A stretch of 64,000 bases of DNA from an uncultured Verrucomicrobiales bacterium (GTDB lineage Bacteria; Verrucomicrobiota; Verrucomicrobiia; Verrucomicrobiales; Akkermansiaceae). Under the pieces are notes generated by a model. That model was not told the DNA's origin. It worked only from the letters and a program-made list of their open reading frames with translations, and did no database searches. Shown here piece after piece: positions 14,986 to 62,958 of this stretch. A program made the translations under genes and the position numbers. Within the stretch, counting starts at the first letter, position 1. Each line of letters begins with the position of its first letter. The DNA lies in NCBI GenBank assembly GCA_905478925.1, contig CAJQKQ010000044.1, forward strand, positions 91,984-155,983, in the 5' to 3' direction.

Positions 14986-17670
14986 GTGGAGATAGTAGAA
15001 GAAATTAGAGATTTCCTGGCCGGGGGGAGTTGGGTGGAGAGGTTCGAGGAAGAGCTGCGTGGCCTCGGCACGCGCTTGGTTCCCAAAGTGAAGGGACTCA
15101 GTCTGGATGAAGGGGAGGGCGAGACCCGCTTCTCCGCAACGGTTCTCGACGATGGGGTCGAAGGCGTTTTCTGGGAGGAGGGCGGCGGGATCCATTTCGA
15201 GACGACCTGCTCCTGCGAGGTGGGCGCTTTCTGCGAGCACGGCTTCGCGGCGGTCGGGAAACTGGCGAAGGAGAAGAAGCTTTCGAGGTTGCTCGGCAGA
15301 AGCGCAGGGGAGGCGGTGAAGCTGGCGCTGGGAAGAGCGGGGGATTTGGGAGATGGGGAGAGGGGGGGAGGGGGAGAAATTGCGCCGGAGGCGAGATTCG
15401 CCCTGCATGTCAGCAAGGGGGAGGTGGACAAGACCACGAATCTGCTTCTGCAATCGCTCGGCGAGAAGGATCCCGGCGAGTGGATCTTTGCCGAGGCGAT
15501 GGTTTACTATGACGGGCATAGTAGCCCGCTGGTATCTGCGGGCGAGGGCGGCAAGACCCCTGCGGAGATGCGAGCGATCCGAGTGCTCAGGGAGACCGGC
15601 TTGTCCTCGATGAAGTCGAATCCCGCATGGCGTTTCCTGCTGAGCATGAAATCCCGCACCACCGATGCGGAAGCGAGTGACAAGTGGTTTCCCGATCCGG
15701 GCCGTGTGCCTGTGGATGCGTTCTGGCACAGGTTCCGGGGTGAGACGGTCGCGGAGCTGGAGGCGGCAGGTTGGGAGGTTTCGTTCGGGGAAGGAGTCGG
15801 GCACGAGGTGCACGACGCCGATCCGGGGAAATGGGAAACCAAGCTCTCGCAAGACGATGAGGCGGACGATGCCTACGAGGGTGATTTTTCCGACGGCGGT
15901 TGGTTCAGCCTGTCGGTGGGCTTCGATGTCGATGGGGACAGGCACGACCTCATGCCCATCCTTGCCGGCTTGCTGAAACAAGATTTCCTTGAAGAGACGC
16001 TGGACCGGCCGGACACGGGTTTCGTTTATGCACCTCTGAAAAACGGCGATGCGCTCAAGCTCCCCATCGGCCGGGTGAGGCGCATCCTCAACCATCTCTC
16101 CGCCCTGATTGACCCGAAGTTTTTCGGAAAAGTGCAGGTGCATGCGCTCGATGCGGCGGCGCTCGGCGGGTTGGAGGGTCTGGGGATAGAAACTCCCAAG
16201 GGCTTGGCGAAACTGAAGAAGCGGCTGGAGAATTTTACGGAGGTCGAGGAGATGGAGACACCTCTGGAGATCAAGGCGACACTGCGGGATTACCAGAAGT
16301 CCGGCTTCCAGTGGATGCAGTTCCTCGCAAGGCACGGCCTGCACGGTATCCTCGCCGACGACATGGGGCTGGGGAAAACGCTCCAAACCCTCGCCCACCT
16401 AATGGCGGAAAAGGTCAGTGGCCGCAGCGGCGGCATGCCCTCACTGGTCGTCGCGCCGACCTCCGTGGTGCCGAACTGGCGGGCGGAGGCGATGAAATTC
16501 GCCCCCGGCCTCAGCGTGCTGGTTCTCAACGGCGCGGATCGGAAAAAATACTACCGCTCCATCCCCCACGCGGATCTCGTGATCACATCCTTTGCTTTGC
16601 TCCAGCGGGACATCGCGAAGCTCTCCGAGGTCAAATTCCACATCGTCGCCCTCGATGAGGCGCAATACATCAAGAACCCCCGCGCGAAAGTCTCGCAGGC
16701 GGCCTGCAAACTCGTTGCGCGGCACCGGCTCTGCCTATCCGGCACCCCCATCGAGAATCACCTCGGCGAGCTCTGGAGCCTGATGCATTTCCTCATCCCC
16801 GGCTACCTCGGCACGGAGGATGTCTTTCAGAAAAAATTTCGTAAACCCATCGAGGAGGAGGGCGATGCGGAGAAGAACACCCTTCTGAAAAAACGCATCG
16901 CTCCGCTCGTGCTGCGCCGCACCAAGGATCAAGTGGCCAAGGAGTTGCCCCCGAAGACGGAGATGATCCACCTGATCGAGCTACACTCCGAGCAGAAGGA
17001 TCTCTACGAAACCGTCCGCGCCACGATGGACAAACGCGTTCGTGAAGCCATCGCCGCCCGCGGTATTGAGCAATCCCAGATTGTGTTCCTCGACGCCCTC
17101 CTGAAGCTCCGCCAAATCTGTTGCGATCCCCGGCTGCTGCCACCGGATTTCTCCGACGGAGTGAAAAGATCCGCAAAATTGGATTTCCTCGCCGAGCTGC
17201 TCGGAACCCTCGTTGAGGAAGGTCGTCGCATTCTGATTTTCTCCCAGTTCACCACGATGCTCGCCCTCATCGAGGATCATCTTGTGAAAACGAAAGTGCC
17301 CTATCTGAAGCTCACTGGAAGCTCGAAAGATCGCGGAAAACTCGTCGAGCAATTCCAGTCCGGGAAGTTCCCCGTTTTCCTCATTTCCCTCAAAGCGGGT
17401 GGCACCGGACTCAATCTGACCGCCGCCGACACCGTGATCCACTACGATCCTTGGTGGAACCCTGCCGCCGAGGCGCAGGCGACGGATCGCGCCTATCGCA
17501 TCGGCCAGGACAAGCCGGTCTTCGTCCACAAGCTGCTCTGCCAAGAAACCGTCGAGGAGCGCATTCATCGCCTGCAGCAGGAAAAGTCCAAGCTCGCCCA
17601 AGGCCTGCTTGCCGACGCAGATGTGGTTCGGAAGCTTGATGCCTCAATGATACGCGAGCTGCTTGGATAA
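14986..17670 (+). CDS. SNF2-family helicase with N-terminal SWIM zinc finger
   Basis: 894 aa starting at GTG. A SWIM-type zinc motif lies near residue 75 ('CSCEVGAFCEH', CxCx5CxH). A less conserved region follows, then a complete SNF2 ATPase: motif I 'DDMGLGKTLQTL' near 457, DEAH-box equivalent 'DEAQYIKNP' near 557, and helicase-C with 'FLISLKAGGTGLNLTAAD' and 'TDRAYRIGQDKPVFVHKL'. The family uses ATP hydrolysis to translocate on double-stranded DNA and displace proteins such as RNA polymerase (RapA-like). A Gly/Glu-rich low-complexity insert ('GERGGGGEIAPEA') sits near residue 125. It is monocistronic, with a convergent lipoprotein gene 16 bp downstream. Confidence 0.92.
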   Translation: MEIVEEIRDFLAGGSWVERFEEELRGLGTRLVPKVKGLSLDEGEGETRFSATVLDDGVEGVFWEEGGGIHFETTCSCEVGAFCEHGFAAVGKLAKEKKLSRLLGRSAGEAVKLALGRAGDLGDGERGGGGEIAPEARFALHVSKGEVDKTTNLLLQSLGEKDPGEWIFAEAMVYYDGHSSPLVSAGEGGKTPAEMRAIRVLRETGLSSMKSNPAWRFLLSMKSRTTDAEASDKWFPDPGRVPVDAFWHRFRGETVAELEAAGWEVSFGEGVGHEVHDADPGKWETKLSQDDEADDAYEGDFSDGGWFSLSVGFDVDGDRHDLMPILAGLLKQDFLEETLDRPDTGFVYAPLKNGDALKLPIGRVRRILNHLSALIDPKFFGKVQVHALDAAALGGLEGLGIETPKGLAKLKKRLENFTEVEEMETPLEIKATLRDYQKSGFQWMQFLARHGLHGILADDMGLGKTLQTLAHLMAEKVSGRSGGMPSLVVAPTSVVPNWRAEAMKFAPGLSVLVLNGADRKKYYRSIPHADLVITSFALLQRDIAKLSEVKFHIVALDEAQYIKNPRAKVSQAACKLVARHRLCLSGTPIENHLGELWSLMHFLIPGYLGTEDVFQKKFRKPIEEEGDAEKNTLLKKRIAPLVLRRTKDQVAKELPPKTEMIHLIELHSEQKDLYETVRATMDKRVREAIAARGIEQSQIVFLDALLKLRQICCDPRLLPPDFSDGVKRSAKLDFLAELLGTLVEEGRRILIFSQFTTMLALIEDHLVKTKVPYLKLTGSSKDRGKLVEQFQSGKFPVFLISLKAGGTGLNLTAADTVIHYDPWWNPAAEAQATDRAYRIGQDKPVFVHKLLCQETVEERIHRLQQEKSKLAQGLLADADVVRKLDASMIRELLG

Positions 17671-18364: not shown

Positions 18365-18486
18365 ACGAATAAAATATCAGGAAGGCCTTACATGTCGAGC
18401 CGTTTTGCCACTCGTGGCCGCCAGCCGTGTTGCCTCATTGAAGCGGATACCGACAAGGGAAGGGAAAGCAGAACCAGATATTGGAT

Positions 18487-18624
18487 TTGAACCGCCAAGT
18501 AAGAAAAGCTCGCCAAGTTTTCCAAAGCAAAAATGCTTTCTGATCAATAATCTCCAGCCAGAGAGGTTCTTTTGAGATTTTTTTTCTCGTGGACTTGGCG
18601 TTCTTGGCGAACTTGGCGGTTCAA
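18487..18624. repeat. 138-bp element bounded by 14-bp inverted repeats
   Basis: TTGAACCGCCAAGT at 18487-18500 is the exact reverse complement of ACTTGGCGGTTCAA at 18611-18624. Inside, further CGCCAAG and CTTGGCG copies add to the symmetry, around an AT-rich centre with a run of eight T. It lies in the 312-bp gap (18365-18676) between the thioredoxin-like gene and pcp, where no gene is seen. It may be a dispersed palindromic element or strong RNA hairpin. Confidence 0.65.
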
Positions 18625-18676
18625 TTTCTTAAGAAATCCCTAATGTCGCCGCCTTGCCGCGCCCGCTCCGGAGATC

Positions 18677-23980: not shown

Positions 23981-24014
23981 TCGGCGACCGAAGATCGCCG
24001 CCACATCGCCGCTA
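23981..24014. repeat. GGCGACCGAAGATCGCC palindrome at the 3' end of priA
   Basis: The sequence CGGCGACCGAAGATCGCCG with a following CGCTAC tail abuts the priA stop. A second copy sits at the 3' end of pta (48297). The core can fold as GGCGA/TCGCC. It is possibly a REP-like element or a transcription end signal; there is no T-run to call it an intrinsic terminator. Confidence 0.55.
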
Positions 24015-26291
24015 CGAGAAGTTATACGCGTCCATATCGAAGACGACGGTGACGTCTTCGGGGAGGGAGGTTTTTCGGAGGATGGTTTGGATGTGGTTGG
24101 TGAGGGGGCGTGCTTTGTGGGAGCGGAGAGTGATCTGGAAGCGGAATTGGTCGTGGGAACGGATCAGGGGGCTGGGGAGCACTTCTCCGAGGGAGATGCC
24201 GGGCGGAAGATTTTCCTTTAGGCGGAGGTGGAGCGTCTGGAGTGTGAATTCGGCGCGACGCTCGTGCGTGGATCTTGCGGTGAGGACTCCGCAGTGGGCG
24301 AAGGGCGGGAAGCTGAACTGGCGGCGCATTTCCATTTCCTGCTCGGCATAGCCATCGAAGTCGTGCTTGCGGGCGAACTGGATGCTGGGGCTATGGGGCG
24401 TAAAGGTCTGGACGATGACTTCGCCTTCGAGCTCGCCGCGGCCGGCGCGGCCGGCGACCTGGGTGATGAGCTGGAAGGTGCGCTCGCCGGCGCGGAAGTC
24501 CGGGACGTGCAGACCGAGGTCGGCGTTGAGTATTCCCACCAAGGTGACGTTGGGGAAATGCAGGCCCTTGGCGATCATCTGGGTGCCGATGAGGACGTCG
24601 ATTTTTTGGGATTTAAATTTCTTGAGGATGTCTTTGAGCGTGTTTTTGCGGCGCATGGCATCCGCATCGATGCGAGCGAAGCGGGCTTCGGGGAGGACTT
24701 TCCGAAGGACTTCCTCGACCTTCTGGGTGCCGTATCCCTGGAGGGCGATGCCTGGGTTTTTGCATTCCGGGCATTTTTTCGGGACGATGGATTGGTGGCC
24801 GCAAACATGGCAGACGAGTCGCTCGTCGGTGCGATGGTAGGTGAGGGCGACGGCGCAGTGCGGGCACTCGCAGACATGGCCGCAGCCGTGGCATTGGAGG
24901 GAGCGGGCGAAGCCGCGGCGGTTGAGGAAAAGGATGGATTGCTCACCTTTTTCGAGGCGTTGCTCGAGCGCGGTGCGGAGCCGGTCGGAGAGGATGGCGA
25001 TCTGGCCTTTCTGCTTCTGTTTTTCCAAGCGCATGTCGATGACACGCACCAGCGGCATCGAGTGGGCGTCGGCGCGTTTGTCGAGGCGGAGCAGGTGGTA
25101 TTTCCCCGCGAGAGTGTTTTGCCATGACTCCAAAGAGGGTGTTGCTGACCCTAAAACGATGACGCATGGCTCGAAGGCGGCGCGGAGGACGGCGACATCG
25201 CGTGCTTGGTAGCGGGGGACGTTTTCCTGTTTGTAGGTGGATTCGTGTTCTTCATCGATGACGATGAGTCCGAGGTTTGGCAGGGGTGCGAAGACGGCGG
25301 AGCGTGCGCCGATGACGATGCGGGCGGTGCCTTTGCGGATGCGGTGCCACTCATCGAAGCGCTCGCCCTGGGAGAGGTTCGAGTGGAGGACGGCGACTTG
25401 GTCGGTGAGGTGGGAGAAGCGGGCTTTGAAGCGGCGGACGGTCTGGGGGGTGAGGGCGATTTCCGGGACCAGGACGAGGACGGTTTTGTCGAGGTCGAGG
25501 GCGGCTTGGGCGGCTTGGAGATAGACCTCGGTTTTGCCGGAGCCGGTGACGCCTAGAAGAAGATAGGGGGAGGGGGCGAGTGGGGGCGAGGGGGGATTTT
25601 CCACCGCAGAGGTGCAGAGGTCGCGGAGGGACGCGGAGATTTCTTGAAATGCTGTTTCTTGTTGCTCGTTTAGGGTGAGGGGTTGGGAGGGGATGATTTC
25701 CTCGGCGGCTTCGGGGTTGCGGCGGATTTCCTCGGTGGTGATGGTGATGAGGCCTTTTTTTTCGAGGGACTTGAGGGAGGGGGCTGAGCCATCGCCGAGG
25801 TCAGTGGTGGGGAGGGTGCGGTTTTCGGCGACTAGGAGGAGAGTGAGGATGGCGTGCTGCTTGGGGGCACGCTTGGCGAGTTTCTCCAACTCCTCCGGAT
25901 CGGGGCTTTCCGTAGTGGTGGCGATGCGGCGAGTCTTGGCCGAATTGCCCTCGGTGCGGACCGCCTCTGGTAGGATGGAGCGGATGACGCTTTCGATACT
26001 GGATCCGTAGTAGTTCGCGATCCAGCGGGCAACCTTGAGGAGGTTGGGGGTGATCAGTGGCTCGGGATCGATGAGCGATTTCACCTCGCGCATGGCGAAC
26101 TCGCTTTGCTCCGGCGGCGGGATGACGGAGAGCACCGTTCCCGAGGTGGTTTTCTGCCGGATGGGTATGCGCACGCGGCAGCCCGGCTCGACGGGGAGGT
26201 CGGCGGGGATGGCGTAGTCGAAAATAAGTTCCGAAGGGCCGTCGATGAGGACGCGGGCGATCACGGCACGACTTTGGAGGAAAAACTTCAA
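24012..26291 (-). CDS. priA: Primosomal protein N' (PriA replication-restart helicase)
   Basis: 759 aa. A superfamily 2 helicase that reloads the replisome at stalled forks. N-terminal fork-binding domain 'ARVLIDGPSELIFDYAIP'; motif I 'GVTGSGKTEVYLQAA'; DEAH equivalent 'IVIDEEHESTYKQE'; a zinc-binding insert with paired cysteines ('CHGCGHVCECPHC', 'CHVCGHQSIVPKKCPEC') near residues 465-510; and helicase-C 'IGTQMIAKGLHFPNVTLVG'. The start is ambiguous: TTG 26291 lies in an AT-rich repeat, and a GTG at 26264 begins closer to the family's usual N-terminus. A segment before motif I ('SASLRDLCTSAVENPPSPPL') is encoded by a dispersed-looking repeat, an insertion that the family does not normally carry. 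Confidence 0.93.
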   Translation of the reverse strand: MKFFLQSRAVIARVLIDGPSELIFDYAIPADLPVEPGCRVRIPIRQKTTSGTVLSVIPPPEQSEFAMREVKSLIDPEPLITPNLLKVARWIANYYGSSIESVIRSILPEAVRTEGNSAKTRRIATTTESPDPEELEKLAKRAPKQHAILTLLLVAENRTLPTTDLGDGSAPSLKSLEKKGLITITTEEIRRNPEAAEEIIPSQPLTLNEQQETAFQEISASLRDLCTSAVENPPSPPLAPSPYLLLGVTGSGKTEVYLQAAQAALDLDKTVLVLVPEIALTPQTVRRFKARFSHLTDQVAVLHSNLSQGERFDEWHRIRKGTARIVIGARSAVFAPLPNLGLIVIDEEHESTYKQENVPRYQARDVAVLRAAFEPCVIVLGSATPSLESWQNTLAGKYHLLRLDKRADAHSMPLVRVIDMRLEKQKQKGQIAILSDRLRTALEQRLEKGEQSILFLNRRGFARSLQCHGCGHVCECPHCAVALTYHRTDERLVCHVCGHQSIVPKKCPECKNPGIALQGYGTQKVEEVLRKVLPEARFARIDADAMRRKNTLKDILKKFKSQKIDVLIGTQMIAKGLHFPNVTLVGILNADLGLHVPDFRAGERTFQLITQVAGRAGRGELEGEVIVQTFTPHSPSIQFARKHDFDGYAEQEMEMRRQFSFPPFAHCGVLTARSTHERRAEFTLQTLHLRLKENLPPGISLGEVLPSPLIRSHDQFRFQITLRSHKARPLTNHIQTILRKTSLPEDVTVVFDMDAYNFS
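25601..25645. repeat. CTCTGCG-type dispersed repeat inside priA
   Basis: On the minus strand this reads GCGTCCCTCCGCGACCTCTG followed by CACCTCTGCGGTGG. The same pattern occurs intergenically after typA (about 34479-34515: GCGCCCCTCTGCGACCTTTG, then CGGCTCTGCGGTG), about 85% alike. In priA it is read in frame as 'SASLRDLCTSAVE', just upstream of the Walker A strand. Confidence 0.65.
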
Positions 26292-26319
26292 ACTCTAAAC
26301 TTTAAACTTCAAGGAAGAA
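26288..26319. repeat. AT-rich AGTTTA-type block before priA
   Basis: In the priA sense this is CTTCCTTGAAGTTTAAAGTT followed by TAGAGTTTGAAG. It is one of a family seen next to polA, pta, the thioesterase gene, ilvH and typA, built from AGTTTAN heptamers after a CTTG(G) lead. It runs into the TTG proposed as the priA start. The rest of the gap to acr3 (26320-26421) holds no recognisable gene. Confidence 0.6.
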
Positions 26320-34436: not shown

Positions 34437-34520
34437 AAATTCAAATTTCAACTTCCAAGGGAGAAGAGAAATAGTAAACTCGGCTCCGCGCCCCTCTGCG
34501 ACCTTTGCGGCTCTGCGGTG
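34437..34520. repeat. Repeat cluster after typA: AT-rich block and CTCTGCG-type block
   Basis: Immediately after the typA stop, AAATTCAAATTTCAACTTCC is an inverted copy of the AT-rich AGTTTA-type block. About 20 bp later CGCCCCTCTGCGACCTTTGC and CTCTGCGGTGAA form the CTCTGCG-type block that also occurs inside priA. No gene is seen in the 136-bp spacer. Confidence 0.55.
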
Positions 34521-34572
34521 AACCTCTTCTCCGTAAGCCAAAGTCTTCCACGGATCACTCGGCACATCTTCC

Positions 34573-61698: not shown

Positions 61699-62958
61699 AT
61701 GAAAAAACTCCTCTCCCTGCTGTTTGTAGTTTTCGCCCTGAGCCTCGGTGCCGCCGAGCCTTCCAAGCCCAACGTGATCCTGATCATTTCCGATGACCAG
61801 GGTTTCGCCGACTACAGCTTCATGGGGCACGATAGGATCAAGACCCCGCATCTCGACAAGATGGCGGCGGAGAGCTTGCTCTATACGCGCGGCTACGTCA
61901 TGCCCGTCTGCTCACCTTCACTGGCGTGCCTGCTCACAGGCAAACTACCAAGCGAGCATGGCATCACCGGGAACGACCTTTCCGGCAAACGCTCGCAACC
62001 CGGCCATCGCGAGGCACTTGCCGAGCAGCTTCTCGGAAACTCCCTGACGCTTCCCAAAGCCGTCACCGAGGCCGGCTACCTGACTTTCCAAACCGGGAAA
62101 ATCTGGAACGTCACCTACAAGGACGTCGGCTTCACCCATGGCATGACGGGCACCGCAGGGCGCCACGGGGATGCAGGACTAGAGATCGGCCGTAAAGGCA
62201 TGAAGCCGATCTACGATTTCATCGAAACCGCCAAGGCCGAGGATAAGCCATTCTTCATCTGGCACGCGCCATTCCTCCCTCACACCCCGCACAATCCGCC
62301 TAAGGAAATATTTAAGGAATACAAAGGCAAGGGACCGACCAAGGCCGCCGAGAAATATTACGCGATGTGCGAGTGGTTCGACAACACCTGCGCTGAGCTG
62401 GACGAGTATCTTGAGAAAAACGGATTGAAGGAAAACACTGTGATCCTCTACCTCGCCGACAACGGCTGGGATGCCGAATACGCCCATGCACACGACCGCT
62501 CAAAGCTTTCCCCCTACGAGCTAGGCATCCGCACGCCGATGTTCGTCCGCTGGCCTGGAAAAGTGAAGCCACAGCGCGATGACGAAACGCTGGCCCACAT
62601 CCTCGACTTCCCGAAGACCATCCTCGACATCACCGGCGCAGAGAACCCCGGCGATCTTAAAGGACTGAACCTGATGGATCAGAAAGCACTAAAGGCGCGC
62701 GACACCGTTTTTGTAGAAGCTTACACCCACGACATCGCAGACCTCAAAGACCCTTCGAAGAGCCTGATTGCCGACGTGGTGATCGAAGGCTGGTGGAAAC
62801 TCATCGTCCCCGGCCCTGTGAAACCCGACCGTAAGTATTCTGGAGTTCCCGCAACGACTGTCCTCTACGACCTGAAAAACGACCCTCTTGAGAAAAACGA
62901 CCTCGCGGCTAAAAATCCGGAAATCGTAGCGAAACTCAAAGCCAAACTGAAGAAATAG
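61699..62958 (+). CDS. Secreted sulfatase (S1-type) with altered active-site signature
   Basis: 419 aa with a signal peptide ('MKKLLSLLFVVFALSLGAAE'). The metal site starts 'NVILIISDDQGFADYSFMGH'. The formylglycine motif near residue 70 is 'VCSPSLACLLTGKLPSEHGI': the Cys, Pro and Ser of C-x-P-S-R are present, but the Arg is Leu. Later elements are 'KPFFIWHAPFLPHTPHNPP', 'VILYLADNGWDAEY' and 'SKLSPYELGIRTPMFVRWPG'. The family hydrolyses sulfate esters of polysaccharides in the periplasm or outside the cell. Without the Arg the Cys might not be modified. The next gene is a broken PSD1 gene. Confidence 0.88.
   Translation: MKKLLSLLFVVFALSLGAAEPSKPNVILIISDDQGFADYSFMGHDRIKTPHLDKMAAESLLYTRGYVMPVCSPSLACLLTGKLPSEHGITGNDLSGKRSQPGHREALAEQLLGNSLTLPKAVTEAGYLTFQTGKIWNVTYKDVGFTHGMTGTAGRHGDAGLEIGRKGMKPIYDFIETAKAEDKPFFIWHAPFLPHTPHNPPKEIFKEYKGKGPTKAAEKYYAMCEWFDNTCAELDEYLEKNGLKENTVILYLADNGWDAEYAHAHDRSKLSPYELGIRTPMFVRWPGKVKPQRDDETLAHILDFPKTILDITGAENPGDLKGLNLMDQKALKARDTVFVEAYTHDIADLKDPSKSLIADVVIEGWWKLIVPGPVKPDRKYSGVPATTVLYDLKNDPLEKNDLAAKNPEIVAKLKAKLKK

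Follow-up and report, generated by a model that had tools for sequence, protein, structure and literature searches.

A dispersed repeat read in frame in a PriA loop of an Akkermansiaceae bacterium resembles the arms that bracket GxxExxY genes

In an uncultured Verrucomicrobiales bacterium, the gene for the essential helicase PriA reads in frame through a copy of a dispersed repeat, and we consider it probable (about 0.65) that this insert is a solo arm of a GxxExxY element family, captured in a tolerant loop of the protein. Such an element would consist of a left arm, a small GxxExxY gene (PD-(D/E)XK nuclease family) and a right arm. The insert lies in a window of 64,000 nucleotides, i.e., the whole stretch of DNA analysed, and its features are collected in Table 1 together with those of the same genome and of related PriA loci. 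The genomes used are draft assemblies, a large share of which are metagenome bins.

Table 1. Repeat arms, the priA gene and related features (positions in the window unless a contig is given)
Feature	Position	Strand	Basis or occurrence
priA	24012..26291	(-)	759-aa ORF, identified by matches to solved PriA chains and 110 homologous loci
Walker A strand and loop, LLLGVTGSGKTE	25527..25562	(-)	Codon alignment with relatives
Pro/Ser tail PPSPPLAPSPY	25563..25595	(-)	Outside the CGCAGAG arm; occurs without the arm in relatives
14 arm-supplied codons, S-A-S-L-R-D-L-C-T-S-A-V-E-N	25596..25637	(-)	Codon alignment with relatives
Solo repeat arm, CGCAGAG family, + strand sequence ATTTTCCACCGCAGAGGTGCAGAGGTCGCGGAGGGACGCGGAGA	25596..25639	(+)	Model match, E 4.3e-15
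Second CGCAGAG arm, downstream of typA	34483..34526	(-)	Model match, E 1.2e-14
Inverted CGCCAAG pair, no gene inside	18486..18630		Intergenic; matches GxxExxY arms of L242 and L241
Bracketed GxxExxY gene of the same genome	G000:C73:62741-63091		Arms at 62670 and 63111; 136 bits, TIGR04256
CGCAGAG arms in PriA loop			Window genome, L009/L090
CGCCAAG arms in PriA loop			L017, L013/L095, L016, L051, L091
GTGGGAGAG-like PriA loop type			L014, L011, L015, L012 and duplicates
GATCAGTGA-like PriA loop type			L046, L066
GTTGATGG-like PriA loop type			L052

Solved PriA chains match the window protein at 29% or more (e.g., 8fak_H, E 2.9e-136), and alignments suggest that the true start of the gene is the GTG at 26264. 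The ORF passes through the repeat as SASLRDLCTSAVEN, immediately ahead of the Walker A strand. The repeat-derived part, TCCGCGTCCCTCCGCGACCTCTGCACCTCTGCGGTGGAAAAT in gene sense, comprises 14 codons (42 bases, 25637-25596), and the codon alignment gives a net gain of about 10 residues over the loop found in the closest relatives without the repeat (L011). The original prediction had counted a single insertion of about 24 residues, including a Pro/Ser stretch regarded as abnormal for PriA. This proved too large, since the Pro/Ser portion is a normal part of the protein in several close relatives devoid of the repeat, where it reads SPTPPLAPSPH (L011), takes a similar form (L015/L094) or is found in others too. 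Because L011, L015 and L094 have it without the repeat, the tail is a feature separate from the arm and probably older. It may itself derive from an arm of a different family, such as that of a four-helix-bundle element, or resemble one by chance; in the tested genomes, this low-complexity sequence gives few, weak dispersed matches at modest E-values. A further relative, L012, has TCCGCGTCCCTC in common with the insert, minus the remaining arm, which could be a relic or could indicate that part of the sequence was present beforehand; its PriA loop, ISASLGTSP, may retain a truncated remnant of a CGCAGAG arm. In the same locus, a CGCAGAG inverted pair lies directly upstream of priA (L012, 2819-2949).

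The site of the insert appears to be permissive. In comparison with the solved chains, the loop of E. coli-type PriA is about 15 residues shorter at this point, and relatives differ freely in both the length and the composition of the loop. In the predicted structure of the window protein (mean pLDDT 77), the insert lengthens a helix, and the loop that leads from there to the Walker A strand is modelled with low confidence. The segment between helix and strand is presumably a surface linker of free length. An insert of about 10 residues would be tolerated in such a place and is probably neutral. Directly upstream of priA, at 26282-26309, lies a short tandem of the AACTTYAA type that resembles, at an E-value of only 0.013, the arms found around a four-helix-bundle gene (L293), and a similar tandem adjoins the typA copy (34440-34467).

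The repeat itself is well attested in the genome. A block shared with an intergenic sequence after typA, from which the original prediction started, is real: GCGTCCCTCCGCGACCTCTG at 25615-25634 (-) has a partner with 3 mismatches at 34488-34507 (+), for a chance expectation of 0.02. A plain BLAST search with the PriA stretch, made before any model was built, retrieved 8 other copies in the genome (E<=2.6e-4). A repeat model trained on 11 copies, the PriA and typA copies included, gives about 44 matches at E<1e-3 (56 at E<=0.1) in the 3.8-Mb genome and matches the priA arm over its full length (44 bases, 52 bits). The PriA peptide is thus encoded by a dispersed multicopy repeat, as predicted, with far more copies than a handful. 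Nor does the same peptide recur in distant PriA proteins lacking the repeat: among 110 PriA loci of the order, several of which represent one species fetched twice, RDLCTSAVEN occurs only in the window and in one close relative (L009/L090, 91% protein identity). Among the best 30 copies, only that of PriA lies deep in a very long ORF (732 residues of the stretch read), and the rest are apparently intergenic or at ORF ends, as judged from ORFs alone.

The copies are frequently arranged in inverted pairs (TTTTTCACCGCAGAG... with ...CTCTGCGGTGAAAAA) that enclose no gene and are spaced about 70-220 bp. The arms are inverted copies, about 40 bp long, of a degenerate tandem with units of 8-10 bases. 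Hairpins predicted for three such empty pairs are strong (z -8 to -11); the fold of the priA copy alone (42-44 bp) is weak, with a hairpin z-score of -2.5. The right arm of one element (L227, 1067-1317) repeats a 9-base unit about seven times, which suggests that arms expand by slippage.

What the original prediction overlooked is that the repeat is an arm of inverted pairs around GxxExxY genes. Pairs about 440-460 bp apart enclose a small gene of this type (TIGR04256, PF13366, PD-(D/E)XK), in the window's own genome and in at least five relatives. The gene of one of these elements, L221, scores 141 bits against TIGR04256, for which the curated cut-off is 35, and is therefore a GxxExxY member; its arm matches the priA arm independently over 47 bases at 87%. 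Against an independent library of GxxExxY arms, the priA arm scores 59-61 bits, as compared with 25-31 bits against a control library. These scores and the full-length match to the model make it very improbable that a loop of small residues with GC-rich codons, free to vary in length and composition, would look like the repeat through mere coincidence; as regards both the CGCAGAG and the CGCCAAG loops, chance resemblance is refuted.

Bracketing is common well beyond the CGCAGAG family. When an inverted pair at E<=1e-5 was sought within 250 bp of each gene, 42 of 51 GxxExxY genes of the order (one element counted twice) and 19 of 29 across the phylum were bracketed, counts that are not independent since many of the genes are orthologous; none of 225 control ORFs from the priA neighbourhood passed the same test. 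The arm sequence differs between elements. Genes for four-helix-bundle proteins (TIGR02436) were bracketed in 23 of 30 cases, by arms of other repeat types. On plasmids of other phyla, three of five GxxExxY genes have a pair (Bacteroides, Gemmatirosa and Bernardetia), that of Treponema has a short pair, and that of Sphingomonas a left arm only. Two GxxExxY genes of the window's own genome (G000:C12:5721-6068 and G000:C15:42166-42504) each have an in-frame stop and are apparently decaying copies. No relative of the GxxExxY protein was found among viral contigs or solved structures. The literature searched, which excluded most subscription journals, reports neither bracketing repeats nor a function for GxxExxY (TIGR04256 / PF13366) and, when searched by repeat sequence, does not mention the repeats.

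The PriA of other species carries arm-like DNA of other families in the same loop, which had likewise escaped the original prediction. In a comparison of the loop DNA with sequence flanking GxxExxY and four-helix-bundle genes, 19 of 110 loci matched at 33 bits or more, against 0 of 110 for a control library of equal size. On a PriA tree of 20 species built without the loop, the loop type changes at least eight times, armless loops being counted as a state. The CGCCAAG pattern is dispersed across the genus: as many as 97 matches occur in one genome (G018), as against 0 or 1 for a control pattern in genomes of the same genus. In G017, where this pattern has a single match, a search with the genome's own PriA loop found no further copy; a non-arm origin considered for that loop on this ground was overturned by the arm library, which identifies it as a CGCCAAG arm. 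Looking for copies of the loop inside the individual priA loci yielded mostly noise. In the window, the CGCCAAG pair lies between a thioredoxin-like and a pcp-like ORF and has a hairpin z-score of -5.8. Another stretch of the window, G-rich and in frame within the ORF of an SNF2-type helicase (15330-15377), resembles four-helix-bundle arms at 43.7 bits, a likeness that is doubtful because of its low complexity.

The behaviour of the two arms of an element can be followed at the metH locus, where a complete or partial GxxExxY gene separates the portions of a split metH in 17 genomes; this arrangement was seen in most genomes of the genus (L343, L348, L351, L360 and L362). An element's own left and right arms are 90% alike after reverse complementation, as opposed to 55% for the arms of orthologous elements, although this comparison is biased towards the own pair, the segments having been chosen for their best inverted match. 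Scores over unselected flanks of 130 bases average 55 for the own arm and 27 for those of other species; in 10 of 17 cases, the own arm comes first. The two arms of one element thus remain complementary while arm sequence varies between elements. At this point metH is continuous in G002 and G012; in G018 its halves lie apart, separated by arm-like sequence with no GxxExxY gene, a remnant that looks as a scar would after an unobserved event.

These observations also bear on a different account, in which the arms would not be mobile but would be structural parts around a resident gene (binding sites or an RNA hairpin). Their copies would have arisen by slippage, template switching or gene conversion, and the PriA loop would have gained one of them passively. 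A metH-associated GxxExxY gene common to most genomes of the genus, whose arms change together, is what this account would lead one to expect, as are expanding tandem units such as the seven 9-base copies of L227. However, the copies are scattered genome-wide and are frequently complete inverted pairs, and GxxExxY genes stand between unrelated neighbours in several phyla, so that we judge it unlikely.

In the window's own genome, the CGCAGAG family is represented by one bracketed gene, by gene-free pairs and by many solo arms. Under the preferred reading, that of a captured solo arm, the GxxExxY protein may move the arms, or maintain them by helping to copy them. One arm would then have become fixed in the PriA loop, either by inserting alone or as the scar left by the loss of a larger element. 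The notion of a mobile or spreading repeat accepted by PriA as an extra loop therefore stands as regards a dispersed repeat read in frame, while movement of the arms is something we infer. With the flanks read by eye, neither a clean empty-site junction nor a target-site duplication could be established.

In a further account, no insertion took place in this lineage, and a related priA would have donated the window's loop type through homologous recombination. Direct support for this comes from codons 194-223, over which the window and L009 share 98% identity, as compared with 86% for the whole gene. This loop type may accordingly have passed from one species to another by recombination instead of arising by a new insertion. 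The tree, which pairs L009 with the arm-less L010 (90/94 support), points the same way, but the separation of L009 from the window is not fully supported. We would put this route at slightly below an even chance; it merely shifts the insertion to another lineage and leaves the origin of the arm unaffected. Insertion, passive copying and recombination do not exclude one another, and the confidences attached to them do not sum to one.

Several known systems show partial likeness. Rickettsia palindromic elements, as described in PMC10969869 and PMC2229807 (reviewing Ogata et al. 2000), are palindromes of 105-150 bp with terminal inverted repeats and, like the repeat in PriA, are short, dispersed and tolerated in frame within conserved protein genes. 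The PriA insert is, however, a single arm of 42-44 bp rather than a palindrome of about 105-150 bp, the arms described here bracket a nuclease-family gene, and the loop is occupied by different arm families in different species. In the 23S rRNA intervening sequences of Coxiella, an S23p four-helix-bundle ORF lies inside terminal inverted repeats that form an RNA hairpin (PMC4990558), and TIGR02436 genes are bracketed similarly in the present genomes. Such sequences lie in an rRNA gene and are excised by RNase III. Here, in contrast, the elements lie away from rRNA genes and their arms are degenerate tandems; the copy of interest is in priA and its arm belongs to the GxxExxY class. MITEs also combine many short non-coding inverted pairs with a gene-bearing form that has the same ends (PMC10969869). 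The paired copies have such terminal inverted repeats and the single priA arm does not; moreover, MITEs are mobilised in trans by a related transposase, whereas the gene that shares these arms is of a nuclease family and does not belong to the known transposases, and no target-site duplication is established here. Finally, the STRR repeats of cyanobacteria and the TAACTGA repeats of Beggiatoaceae are likewise short degenerate tandem units between genes, but the abstracts covered (PMC4679880) do not report them as inverted arms of GxxExxY or four-helix-bundle genes.

We tentatively propose, with rather less confidence than for the PriA insert itself, that the CGCAGAG, CGCCAAG, CGGATGNACGC, GTTGATG and other degenerate short repeats dispersed in these bacteria are arms of one general class of small elements with a GxxExxY nuclease or a four-helix-bundle protein as cargo, that the arms of these elements vary in concert, and that essential proteins such as PriA repeatedly take up solo arms as loops. 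This would link hitherto unexplained dispersed repeats of bacteria to two uncharacterised families of small genes and would offer a candidate enzyme together with its cognate DNA. It would also mean that, in an essential helicase, one and the same loop holds different mobile-element DNA in different species.
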